Assembly (NCBI GenBank): GCA_902603305.1
Contig: CACKUI010000002.1
Location: 1 to 64,000 of the forward strand
Direction: 5' to 3'
From: an uncultured Pelagibacteraceae bacterium
GTDB lineage: Bacteria > Pseudomonadota > Alphaproteobacteria > Pelagibacterales > Pelagibacteraceae
DNA length: 64,000 nt
Part shown: positions 38,695-42,899 of the stretch, in pieces
Layout of the letters: each line of letters opens with the position of its first letter
Position numbering within the stretch: position 1 is the stretch's first letter
Translations under genes and position numbers: made by a program
Notes under the pieces: generated by a model
The model's database searches: none
Told to the model about the DNA's origin: nothing
The model's input: only the letters and a program-made list of their open reading frames with translations

Positions 38695-39624
38695 ATGAAA
38701 ATATTAGGAATTGGAAACGCAATAGTAGATGTGATTTGCAAAGTTGAAGATGAATTTATCACTAAAAATAATTTAACAAAAAGTACTATGAAATTAATTT
38801 TTGACGATAAAGAATTTAAAGATTTATTATCTAGTCTCAAAATAGAAAAAACTGTTTCAGGGGGGTCTGTTGCTAATTCAATAGTTGGTTTATCTCAACT
38901 TGGAAATAAAGTAGGTTTTATAGGTAAAGTTAATGACGATGATCTTGGTGAAAAATATGAAGATGGTCTAAAGCAGGAGAATGTTAAATATTTTTATTCA
39001 AAGAAAAAAGAAGAACTGCCTACCGGAACATGTTTGATTTTAGTTACACCAGACTCTGAAAGAACAATGTGTACCTTCTTAGGAACTGCAGGTAAAATAA
39101 ATGAAAACGACGTTAGCTCAGATGCAATTAAACAAAGTGAAACAATACTCTTAGAAGGTTACCTTTGGGATGAAGGTGAGCCTAAGAAAGCTTTTGAAAA
39201 AGCAATTCAAAGTGCTAACAAAGTTGCAATGTCTTTATCTGATCAGTTTTGCGTTGACAGACACAAACCTCATTTTTTAGAACTGGTTAAAAACAAATTA
39301 GATATAACTTTTGCGAATGAACAAGAAATAATGTCATTAATAGATGCAAAGTCTTTTGATGAAGTAATAAGTTTTTCGAAATCTCTTGGCAAAATAATTG
39401 TTTTAACAAGGGGTGAAAAAGGAGCTGTTGCTATTAATGGAGATGATGTTGCTGAATGTGGAATTAAAGAAGGTCTCAAAATAATTGACTTAACTGGAGC
39501 TGGAGACCTTTTCGCAGCAGGTTTTTTGCATGGACATGTAAATAATATGACACTTAAAGAGAGTTTGGACAAAGGAACTGAGATGTCTTCTAAAGTAATT
39601 CAACAAATTGGGGCTAGACTTTAA
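38695..39624 (+). CDS. PfkB-family carbohydrate/nucleoside kinase
   Basis: GIGNAIVDVICKVEDEF, DLTGAGDLFAAGFLHG. Confidence 0.92.
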   Translation: MKILGIGNAIVDVICKVEDEFITKNNLTKSTMKLIFDDKEFKDLLSSLKIEKTVSGGSVANSIVGLSQLGNKVGFIGKVNDDDLGEKYEDGLKQENVKYFYSKKKEELPTGTCLILVTPDSERTMCTFLGTAGKINENDVSSDAIKQSETILLEGYLWDEGEPKKAFEKAIQSANKVAMSLSDQFCVDRHKPHFLELVKNKLDITFANEQEIMSLIDAKSFDEVISFSKSLGKIIVLTRGEKGAVAINGDDVAECGIKEGLKIIDLTGAGDLFAAGFLHGHVNNMTLKESLDKGTEMSSKVIQQIGARL

Positions 39625-39628
39625 ATAA

Positions 39629-39739
39629 TTATTTTTTCTTTCTTTTAAAACTACCCTTGCCCTTTTTTGGCTTTATTACTCGAGTTTTATATTTTGGTGT
39701 TAATAAATCTTTAGCAATAAAATTTTTTTTTGGTTTCAT
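39629..39739 (-). CDS. 36-aa ArfA-like small basic protein (not in supplied ORF track)
   Basis: MKPKKNFIAKDLLTPKYKTRVIKPKKGKGSFKRKKK; LL.P...RV.K.KKGKGS[YF].RK pattern resembles ArfA. ATG 2 nt after upstream stop. Confidence 0.6.
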   Translation of the reverse strand: MKPKKNFIAKDLLTPKYKTRVIKPKKGKGSFKRKKK

Positions 39740-39741
39740 GA

Positions 39742-41829
39742 TTATTTTTTTCTTAGCCAGAATTGGTACATTCCTTTAAATATATCTGGATGTTTAATCT
39801 CAAATTCATTCCAATTCATCAAAGATGTAAAATTTTTATCATCTTTATAATAATTTGAGTAATCTTTTTTTAAAGAAGAATTTGCAAAACCTAAAAATTC
39901 TAAATTATATTTTTGGATTAATTTTGAAATTTTTGGCAAAGTAAAGCGATGCTCTTGAACATGAAAAACTAGATCTCTCAGACTTGATGTTGTATGAAAA
40001 TCATAATTGAAATTAAGTTTTTGTAATGGAATATTTTTTTTGTCATTTTTTATAATTTCTCTAAAATTTCTAATATCTTTTAAGTTATTTTTAAATTTTC
40101 TCTCTTTTAATAATTCCCTTGTTTCAACTATATGTTTCCTAGCATATTCACTGTACAAGCCTAGTTTAATAAAACCACCAGGTTCTAAAATATCTAGTAG
40201 TATATTTAATCCTTTTTCAGGGTTCTCTAGGTGATGCAGTACTCCCATACATTCAATAACATTAAACTTTCTTTTTAAACTTAATAATTTCAATAAATCA
40301 GTATGTAAAAATTCAATATTATTAATATTTAATTCCTGCATTCTTCTCTTAGCAAATGCTAGGCTTGATAAACTTAGGTCAATAGCAAGAATATTTGAAT
40401 TTTCGTAATCAATTCTTCTTGCCAGTTGATGCCCTGTTCCACATCCAGCTATTAGTATGTTCCACTTTATTTTTTCATTTTCTGGATTAATTTTATTTGG
40501 CTGTATATCATGATTTAATTCTTCAAAAAAATTTACTTTAGGGAGATAATTTGCATATCTCCAGCGTGGATATGGATTTTCCTCGTATTGATCTCTTACC
40601 TTATTTGATATGCTATCGGATATTTCTGTTGATTTTATGTGTTTTTTAAGATCTTTTTCTTTTAAAAAATCATGAATCTGGATTTTTATAAGGTCATTAA
40701 ATAATTGATTTTTTGAAAGGTGATTTTTAAACTTATTTATTAGTATTTCTGAATTGCTAAGTGGAATATAGCATGCAAGAATTGCAACATCTTGCTCGTT
40801 TATTGTATCAGATTTTTCAATTTTTAATTTCAAGTCTTCGACTAAATTTATTTCATCATCAGATTGGAAAAAAATATACTCATTAAGAAATGACTGTTCG
40901 GCAAATGATAAAATAAAATCAGAATAGTTTTCTGATAAATTTTGTTTATTATTTTTAATTGTAAATAATATTTCTTTTCTAATTGTGTATAAAAACTTTT
41001 CTAAAAACTGATCCCTGATTAGAGATTTTTGTAATATTAAATGAAAAAGTTTTTTTTTTAATACTAACTGAACTAACTGATTGCTTATCATATTGGCACT
41101 AGTTTCAATTAGTTTTTCGAATTTCTTTTTATCTTCATCAAAAATAATTAATTGTTTTGCGTTATTGAATAAATAATTATGATTTATTGAGTTTTTTTCG
41201 TATAGAAATTCAAAAATTTTTACTAAGTCTTTACTGTTATTTTCTGTAATATTATTAAGTCGTAACGTATTGAATAAGTCTACAGCACCTGAAATACCCA
41301 TATAATTTTCTGAATCTAACTCAAATATTTTTTTATAGCAGTTTAAAGCCTCTTTAAAATTTCTCATTTCTTTAAATATCTGTGCTTGAAGTCCATAACA
41401 ATTAAGATTAGACGGCTGAATTTGTGTTACCTTTTTTAAATAATTCAACGCTTGTTGAAATTTGCCTTGGTTTTTATAGAGAATACCTAGATTATAATTA
41501 GGATCTGCAAAATCACTTTTTAAAGATATGGCCTTATTGTAGTGTAAAATTGCTTGATTGAATTCTCCATTTTTAAAAAAAATATTTGCTAAGTTATTAT
41601 TAACGAATGGATTGTTTGGCTCTAAATTTACGACTTTTAAAAAATATTCTTTTGCTTTATTTTCTCTGCCAGTTTCTGCAAATAAGGTGCCTAAATAATT
41701 TATACAATTTATGTTTTTAGAATCTTTTTTCAATATTTCTTCATATAATTTCTCTGCTGCATAAAAATTTTTATTTTGATGATTTTTAATTGCTTTAGAT
41801 AACAAATTTTTAATTGCTGATTGACTCAT
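39742..41829 (-). CDS. TPR-repeat protein with C-terminal SAM-dependent methyltransferase domain
   Basis: Tandem TPRs; VRDQYEENPYPRW; ILIAGCGTGHQLA; IECMGVLHHLENPEKGL. Confidence 0.88.
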   Translation of the reverse strand: MSQSAIKNLLSKAIKNHQNKNFYAAEKLYEEILKKDSKNINCINYLGTLFAETGRENKAKEYFLKVVNLEPNNPFVNNNLANIFFKNGEFNQAILHYNKAISLKSDFADPNYNLGILYKNQGKFQQALNYLKKVTQIQPSNLNCYGLQAQIFKEMRNFKEALNCYKKIFELDSENYMGISGAVDLFNTLRLNNITENNSKDLVKIFEFLYEKNSINHNYLFNNAKQLIIFDEDKKKFEKLIETSANMISNQLVQLVLKKKLFHLILQKSLIRDQFLEKFLYTIRKEILFTIKNNKQNLSENYSDFILSFAEQSFLNEYIFFQSDDEINLVEDLKLKIEKSDTINEQDVAILACYIPLSNSEILINKFKNHLSKNQLFNDLIKIQIHDFLKEKDLKKHIKSTEISDSISNKVRDQYEENPYPRWRYANYLPKVNFFEELNHDIQPNKINPENEKIKWNILIAGCGTGHQLARRIDYENSNILAIDLSLSSLAFAKRRMQELNINNIEFLHTDLLKLLSLKRKFNVIECMGVLHHLENPEKGLNILLDILEPGGFIKLGLYSEYARKHIVETRELLKERKFKNNLKDIRNFREIIKNDKKNIPLQKLNFNYDFHTTSSLRDLVFHVQEHRFTLPKISKLIQKYNLEFLGFANSSLKKDYSNYYKDDKNFTSLMNWNEFEIKHPDIFKGMYQFWLRKK

Positions 41830-42389
41830 TTTTTTGAGATCATATATCCATTTTTTGTACTCTTAATAAAATTGTTATCGTTGAAATATTTACTAATTTT
41901 TTTTCTCAATCTATAGATATGTGTTTCAACAGTATGAGTTTCGAGTTTTGAATTGTGACCCCATACTTCAATTTGTAACTGTGTTACGTTAACTGGTTTT
42001 TCAACATTGGAGATAAACATAATAATATTTGCCTCTCTCTCAGTTAAATCAAGGCTTTTTTCACTATTAAAAATTTTTCTTGAGTTTAAATTTAATTTAT
42101 AAACTCCCAAATCTATCTCCGATTGCTGGCTATACTTTTCTTTTAAAAATTTAATATTAATATTTTCAATTAATTTTACTATATCGATTGGAAAATTACT
42201 TATTACAATTTGATTTTCAAATTTTTTTATTTTTTTATTTGATATTACCAAATAATTATCCTTTGTTTTTAAATTAAGGTCAGTAATTTTATTTATATAA
42301 GTCAATTTAAAGTTTATATGATCGCTTATTTCACTTAGTATTTCATATAAAATTTTAAAATCATAAATTACTAAATTATCATTATTCAT
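41826..42389 (-). CDS. OmpR/PhoB-type winged-helix protein with degenerate N-terminal region
   Basis: C-terminal LTEREANIIMFI...LQIEVWGHNSKLETHTVETHIYRLRKKI; no clear phosphoacceptor receiver motif. Confidence 0.8.
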   Translation of the reverse strand: MNNDNLVIYDFKILYEILSEISDHINFKLTYINKITDLNLKTKDNYLVISNKKIKKFENQIVISNFPIDIVKLIENINIKFLKEKYSQQSEIDLGVYKLNLNSRKIFNSEKSLDLTEREANIIMFISNVEKPVNVTQLQIEVWGHNSKLETHTVETHIYRLRKKISKYFNDNNFIKSTKNGYMISKK

Positions 42390-42404: not shown

Positions 42405-42899
42405 ATGACAATTGTTCTAAAAAATAAAGCATCACTTCTGTTTGATGATTTTATCTTTCAGTGTTCTATTGGAAAGAAAGGACTAGTTAAAAATAAGATC
42501 GAGGGTGATAAAAAAACTCCTATTGGAACATATTCATTAGGTAATTTATATTACAGAAAAGATAGGAACCCAAAACCATTAACGAGATTAAAATGTATTC
42601 CAATAAAAAAAAATATGGGATGGTGTGATGATATAAAAAGTAAAAAAAATTATAACAAATTAATTAAAGTTGATAATAAAATAAAGCATGAAAAATTATT
42701 TAGAAAAGATTACAAATATGATTTTATGATCCCTATTAATTACAATACAAAAAAAACTAAGTTAGGTAGAGGTAGTGCTATCTTTTTACATTTAACAAAA
42801 AATTATAGCTCAACATTAGGGTGTATTACAATTAAAAAGAAAGATTTTTTGATACTTTTAAAATTAATAAATAAAAATACCAAAATAAGATTAACTTAA
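42405..42899 (+). CDS. L,D-transpeptidase family (YkuD) protein
   Basis: DKKTPIGTYSLG; HLTKNYSSTLGCITI active-site Cys motif. Confidence 0.85.
   Translation: MTIVLKNKASLLFDDFIFQCSIGKKGLVKNKIEGDKKTPIGTYSLGNLYYRKDRNPKPLTRLKCIPIKKNMGWCDDIKSKKNYNKLIKVDNKIKHEKLFRKDYKYDFMIPINYNTKKTKLGRGSAIFLHLTKNYSSTLGCITIKKKDFLILLKLINKNTKIRLT

Follow-up and report, generated by a model that had tools for sequence, protein, structure and literature searches.

A short ArfA homologue at a conserved locus of SAR11 chromosomes

SAR11 bacteria are among the most abundant cell groups in the ocean. In E. coli, ArfA frees ribosomes stuck at the ends of broken messages, and the beta- and gammaproteobacterial members of its family typically have a non-stop gene layout, a feature of how the gene is regulated rather than of the protein itself. 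In E. coli, a stem-loop within the ORF makes the arfA transcript a non-stop message (PMC8012679). The E. coli protein contacts RF2 through the segment N14-E30, and the RF2 pocket that receives ArfA F25 consists of V198 and F217 (PMC6299226). A second adaptor, ArfT of Francisella, carries KKGGSTNKK, has no hydrophobic residue at the F25 position and partners with either RF1 or RF2 (PMC6299226). In most other Alphaproteobacteria the backup rescue role that we propose here for SAR11 ArfA is held by ArfB (YaeJ), a protein of about 140 aa with its own GGQ domain. A survey of 15,259 genomes confined arfA to gammaproteobacteria, some betaproteobacteria and one Bacillus group; among its 2,376 Alphaproteobacteria it recorded no arfA, and arfB in the majority (PMC11633108). 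That survey used nucleotide profiles (PMC11633108), which we infer would miss such divergent short genes, explaining its zero. A literature search turned up no report of arfA on a SAR11 chromosome, though databases that annotate with Pfam may already label some entries, and none of a backup to trans-translation in SAR11.

Sequence relationships of the 36-aa product

The window, a 64,000-nt stretch of DNA from an uncultured Pelagibacteraceae bacterium, carries a 36-aa ORF at the position given in the preliminary description, on the minus strand (Table 1); that description had likened the product by eye to ArfA. We consider it very probable that this ORF is a SAR11 arfA, encoding an RF2-recruiting backup rescue factor that is probably expressed at a steady low level through coupled translation. 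A Pfam-A search gave a single match, to ArfA (PF03889; 29.9 bits, E 3.8e-7), above the curated gathering cut-off of 25.5 bits, and the same profile matches nothing else in the 654-kb assembly to which the window belongs. The resemblance first drawn by eye, including the KKGKGS[FY]xRK element, is thus above chance. Searched as a single sequence against all PDB chains with phmmer, the protein matched six sequences, every one ArfA (E 0.004-0.011), in a gapless alignment that pairs query residues 4-36 with a 33-residue stretch of E. coli ArfA. The same six sequences, and no others, were matched by a profile built from 38 SAR11 homologues (E 1.9e-6 to 5.8e-6). In hhalign, 34 columns aligned with full-length E. 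coli ArfA at 50% identity. Lack of both HMM similarity and conservation in relatives, or assignment to another ribosome-associated family, had been named as refuting outcomes; the similarity exceeds the curated cut-off, the ORF is conserved (see below), and no such family matches. In Pfam-A, the ORF matched neither PF00472 (the RF-1 domain with GGQ, our criterion for ArfB/YaeJ) nor PF23876 (DUF7230, cut-off 27 bits). No NCBIfam model matches it, a null that is uninformative because E. coli ArfA is also unmatched there, and PHROGs gave weak matches only, to families of unknown function.

Table 1 Features of the arfA locus in the window
Feature	Coordinates	Strand	Basis
pfkB-family kinase gene, convergent with arfA	38695..39624	+	PF00294 150 bits, conserved flank
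arfA ORF, 36 aa, ATG start, TAA stop, MKPKKNFIAKDLLTPKYKTRVIKPKKGKGSFKRKKK	39629..39739	-	PF03889 29.9 bits, conservation, pN/pS 0.11
arfA codons 25-36, basic tail KKGKGSFKRKKK	39632..39667	-	K25, K26, G27, G29, S30 and R33 invariant, n = 38 SAR11
arfA codons 6-22, NFIAKDLLTPKYKTRVI	39674..39724	-	Counterpart of E. coli ArfA N14-E30, gapless alignment
TPR repeats + methyltransferase gene	39742..41829	-	Pfam TPR_1, Methyltransf_31
Winged-helix (Trans_reg_C) gene, conserved upstream partner of SAR11 arfA	41826..42389	-	PF00486 46.7 bits, synteny
L,D-transpeptidase (YkuD) gene, the conserved outer flank, transcribed divergently from the winged-helix gene	42405..42899	+	PF03734 44.3 bits, synteny

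Gapless alignment to the ArfA chains places Y17 of the window protein opposite F25, so that the SAR11 and E. coli proteins share an aromatic residue at that position as well as the KKGKGS[YF]xRK tail; the tail is the counterpart of the ArfA region that inserts into the empty mRNA channel. The SAR11 protein is half the length of E. coli ArfA (36 versus 72 aa) and has no counterpart of residues 1-10 of the E. coli protein or of its hydrophobic tail at the C-terminus. In the same alignment, E. coli A18, whose change to threonine inactivates ArfA, corresponds to K10, and other alphaproteobacterial ArfAs mostly have K or R at that position. Judged by every protein sequence feature tested, the window protein is an ArfA of variant form (short, with an ordinary stop and no hairpin), with a predicted role in rescue.

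Conservation, gene order and phage copies

Conservation in other SAR11 genomes, suggested at the outset as a check, is borne out: the ORF is kept and under purifying selection throughout Pelagibacteraceae. PF03889 matches 45 of 61 genomes of the same genus, many of them incomplete, and 0 of 40 others in that draw. The SAR11 profile gives strong matches in the Pelagibacteraceae genera g1, g5, g7, g8 and g9, mostly at E 1e-14 to 1e-20, and scanning named genomes gave 393 relatives, the best 80 of which are all from Pelagibacteraceae, which places the source organism in SAR11. Among 38 aligned SAR11 sequences, N6, L12, K25, K26, G27, G29, S30 and R33 are invariant, and position 17 (ArfA F25) is Y or F in all. 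Across 516 close pairs drawn from 144 distinct 28-codon cores, pN/pS is 0.11 (pS 0.42, pN 0.046), showing strong selection on the protein, and third codon positions are the most variable among the 144 cores. A lysine-rich peptide in an AT-rich genome can inflate similarity; the E-values, the invariance and the selection speak against that here. An ORF this short, AT-rich and rich in lysine could in principle be a chance Lys/Gly-rich reading that resembles ArfA, but it has hundreds of relatives, mostly at the same locus where this was read, an invariant motif, the low pN/pS, and a PDB profile match (E 2e-6) to ArfA alone. Conservation and selection together refute a chance origin, to which we assign practically no probability.

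Gene order is likewise conserved. At nearly every arfA locus in the five genera, the winged-helix gene is followed by arfA, the convergent pfkB gene and nth, and the YkuD gene lies beyond the winged-helix gene at the other end. Both the E. coli and the SAR11 arfA genes have a convergent gene at the 3' side, and in the window 4 bp separate the pfkB stop from the arfA stop. Upstream, the arfA ATG (starting at 39739) lies 2 nt past the stop of the TPR-methyltransferase gene (ending at 39742), and the preliminary description was right in this; that gene is in turn overlapped by 4 nt by the winged-helix gene. The coupling to the TPR-methyltransferase gene that had been suggested from this spacing holds as adjacency in the window, but is local only: the gene stands immediately upstream of arfA in the window and in loci L007, L010, L032, L088 and L095, whereas most relatives have the winged-helix gene there. 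Because the TPR-methyltransferase gene was inserted locally, separating arfA from the winged-helix gene in the window and a few relatives, and is absent at that place in most relatives, we rejected coupling to it as a general feature. Close spacing to whichever gene lies upstream is widespread: the upstream stop is no more than 120 nt from the arfA start in 186 of 193 loci, a majority overlap, and the commonest geometry is a 4-nt (ATGA) or 1-nt overlap with the upstream gene's stop. The winged-helix protein has 187 aa, lacks a Pfam receiver-domain match and is fairly divergent among relatives; in SAR11, its gene lies upstream of arfA or of pfkB, divergent from the YkuD gene.

An ArfA in an alphaproteobacterium with a streamlined genome had been singled out as notable. 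Its presence in SAR11 is confirmed, but SAR11 is not its sole holder, since rare ArfA-like proteins occur in other Alphaproteobacteria (G407, G628, G418, G521, G452, G376 and G575) and in phages of this class. These proteins, including HTVC027P gp30 and the ORFs of Cr30 and CRP-212, share with SAR11 ArfA the core NPxAxxL...R.[RK]V..[KR]KGKGSYxR. A viral collection contained 222 relatives; of 80 loci read, 78 or more show the ORF with its KGKGS core. Gp30 of pelagiphage HTVC027P is annotated as ArfA (PMC12753301), an annotation to which the chromosomal SAR11 gene gives host-side context, and Citromicrobium phage RXM is reported to encode ArfA (PMC8953757). HTVC034P gp63 also carries ArfA, Caulobacter phage Cr30 (L347:1459-1623) and Roseobacter phage CRP-212 (L348:1477-1614) carry unannotated ArfA ORFs, and HTVC115P gp18 and CRP-13 have a variant without KGKGS. 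The named phages went unmatched in tblastn with the 36-aa query; a longer phage homologue as query recovered HTVC027P and others. With close relatives in pelagiphages and at least 78 viral contigs, the gene might be a recent phage-derived acquisition serving phage takeover and not the host. Against this, its chromosomal copy sits at a single conserved locus in five genera, where no neighbouring phage genes were seen, and the chromosomal neighbours accompany arfA at 0 of the 80 viral loci read. The locus conserved across SAR11 genera refutes a recent capture, and we regard a phage-serving gene as very improbable. We note that many phage ArfAs (L134:4519 onward, L129, L137, L149 and L171) have an extra N-terminal stretch, MPGKWDGKSRISNDKYRxxFDRIF, and that the CRP-212 ORF sits within the span of the annotated gene gp38.

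Message layout and rescue partners in SAR11

Unlike E. coli arfA, the SAR11 gene ends in a normal stop and lacks a terminator or RNase III hairpin. In a hairpin scan, E. coli arfA as control gave -15.4 kcal/mol, compared with -10.7 for shuffles; 90 SAR11 arfA loci had no 3' hairpin (mean z 0.2; best in the window, -3.8), and there is no terminator-like site near the window arfA. A short gene with an ordinary stop and no hairpin means that a non-stop mRNA controlled by trans-translation is absent from SAR11. Two of the seven other alphaproteobacterial arfA genes, those of G407 and G628, do have a terminator-like hairpin inside the ORF and appear to be non-stop messages, outside the beta- and gammaproteobacteria; the E. 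coli-like layout is therefore present in Alphaproteobacteria and missing in SAR11. Hairpins of this type (L209, L211) have T-runs and lie just downstream of the ArfA motif.

The rescue inventory of SAR11 was taken from 59 Pelagibacterales genomes of nine genera. A PF00472 search, which detected E. coli ArfB at 2e-24 as a positive control, found no ArfB-sized gene in any of them; no genome had more than two matching ORFs, each of about 350 aa, and these are RF1 and RF2 (SPF) where checked. All near-complete SAR11 genomes tested thus differ from E. coli, and from most other Alphaproteobacteria, in having no ArfB. In contrast, tmRNA was found in 58 of the 59 genomes and SmpB in 56. SmpB and RF2 were not found in the window's own assembly, gaps that are not evidence of absence because that assembly is only about 51% complete. 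RF2 of SAR11 genomes has a pocket matching the one used by E. coli ArfA: ten Pelagibacterales RF2s have I or V at 198 and F at 217, and their RF1s have A at 217. Since the pocket is equally conserved in arfA-negative genomes, it was set aside as proof of an interaction between ArfA and RF2; it permits the mechanism and does not prove it.

By analogy with E. coli ArfA, the most likely target of the 36-aa product is a ribosome that has translated a truncated mRNA past its last codon, to which the protein would bind. Its basic tail would enter the empty mRNA channel, and the NxIAKDLxxxKYKxRV segment would dock on RF2 and hold it in the active open form, whereupon the GGQ of RF2 could release the stuck peptide without a stop codon. 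Because tmRNA-SmpB is present and ArfB absent, SAR11 ArfA would serve as a backup to trans-translation. An ordinary stop right after the functional tail, with neither terminator nor RNase III hairpin, suggests constitutive expression, and arfA would probably be made at a steady low level via translational coupling to the upstream gene, its supply not being limited to failure of trans-translation as in E. coli. In SAR11, then, a streamlined ArfA would replace the absent ArfB, apparently without autoregulation of the E. coli non-stop type. An ArfT-like mode, in which a small basic adaptor could bring both RF1 and RF2 to non-stop ribosomes and so differ from E. coli ArfA in its choice of partner, would fit the length of the SAR11 protein (36-40 aa), since ArfT is likewise a very short, basic adaptor with no non-stop control of its mRNA (PMC6299226). 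However, SAR11 ArfA keeps a true KGKGS within its tail and an aromatic residue, Y17 in the window, at the F25 position, both of which ArfT lacks, and SAR11 RF1 has A where RF2 has F217; we consider an ArfT-like mode improbable and retain RF2 as the expected partner.

Loss of arfA and the DUF7230-like proteins

In a tree built from dapB, nth, pfkB and ldt, at least six changes are needed to account for the presence of arfA. The tree itself cannot separate gain from loss, and six losses are most simply read from the distribution, loss being favoured because one arfA locus is common to five genera. In 17 of 18 arfA-less g1 genomes in which the pfkB locus was read, the winged-helix gene and pfkB are adjacent with no ORF between them. 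A G106 stretch from the wrong side of pfkB was left out of account. Loss of arfA can leave tmRNA and SmpB in place.

A profile built from weak matches in the sister family f2 found a related small ORF in 28 of 29 f2 genomes, 2 of 2 g6 genomes and 12 of the 18 arfA-less g1 genomes. The g1 protein reads like MSKKRKKLKKKNPMAKLLSSPMLRNKIVKNKKKIYNRKKFKLENE and adjoins a photolyase-like gene in 8 of 8 loci fetched. At L384:4663-4806 (minus strand), and at the same place in L385-L391, a conserved basic ORF of 45-50 aa, KKKNPMAKLLSSPMLRNKIVKNKKKIYNRKKFK, lies by the photolyase-like gene in SAR11 genomes that lack arfA. Anchoring on the photolyase-like gene located the related ORF in 0 of 15 arfA-positive genomes, and a whole scan of the complete arfA-positive genome G012 found arfA and no related ORF. 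The related protein, which lacks KGKGS, is present elsewhere in the genome in three of the six arfA-loss lineages, and none was found in the other three; independent replacement events are few because most of the 12 g1 genomes form one clade. In family f2 (L354-L381) and genus g6 (L382, L383), the related small basic protein without KGKGS lies at other loci.

We call these proteins DUF7230-like on the basis of profile comparison, because only one of them reaches PF23876: a g6 protein that scores 27.0, exactly at the cut-off, while the family f2 proteins and those from the g1 clade of 10 genomes fall below it. Two independently collected sets, one recovered with PF23876 and the other with PF03889 (the latter supplemented by two SAR11 members and E. 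coli ArfA), matched each other in hhalign with probability 95.8 and E 7e-9, compared with a best E of 0.004 among 60 column-shuffled controls. Larger sets gave probability 97.9 and E 6e-13, but include proteins found by ArfA queries, hence the comparison with independently found members. E. coli ArfA alone matched the DUF7230 set weakly (probability 44), and the link, as read from these alignments, runs through the alphaproteobacterial members. DUF7230 and DUF7230-like proteins share the N-terminal NP[IMV]AKxLxxPxxxxKV with SAR11 ArfA, and most have a basic Y[NS]RKxK tail; they differ in having no KGKGS, no assigned function and a different locus.

The shared NP[IV]AKxLRTPK[YF], common to DUF7230-like proteins of unknown function, and the loss of arfA from genomes in which tmRNA and SmpB stay could also point to a small ribosome- or RNA-binding protein of the ArfA/DUF7230 group with a job other than non-stop rescue, such as assembly or hibernation. 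We think such a role improbable: E. coli ArfA relies on the same residues in the mRNA channel as are invariant here, searching the PDB with the profile of 38 SAR11 homologues matched no other ribosomal protein, and a non-stop layout like that of E. coli is retained in two further members from Alphaproteobacteria. Non-stop rescue with RF2 thus stays our preferred reading of SAR11 ArfA. The DUF7230-like protein in three loss lineages suggests in turn that ArfA and DUF7230 belong to one superfamily. We advance tentatively, at somewhat less than an even chance, that they are two branches of a superfamily of tiny release-factor-recruiting rescue adaptors that replace one another in SAR11. The branches would have in common the NPxAKxL...[FY]K.[KR]V segment and differ in their mRNA-channel tails, KKGKGS[FY]xRK or K..Y[SN]RKxK, and pelagiphages and Roseobacter, Caulobacter and T4-like Acinetobacter phages would carry one branch or the other. 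If so, DUF7230, which Pfam lists without a function, would conceal a system for ribosome rescue, and the present findings make its standing as a second ArfA-like system testable. DUF7230 itself is rare; a protein of Acinetobacter phage Ac42 scores 51.6 on PF23876, and a 39-aa DUF7230 protein, MKGKRNPIAKAVRTPAFKMQVVKDKTQYSRKEKFKKSYE (L350:392-511), is common to Acinetobacter T4-like phages, with dozens of records.
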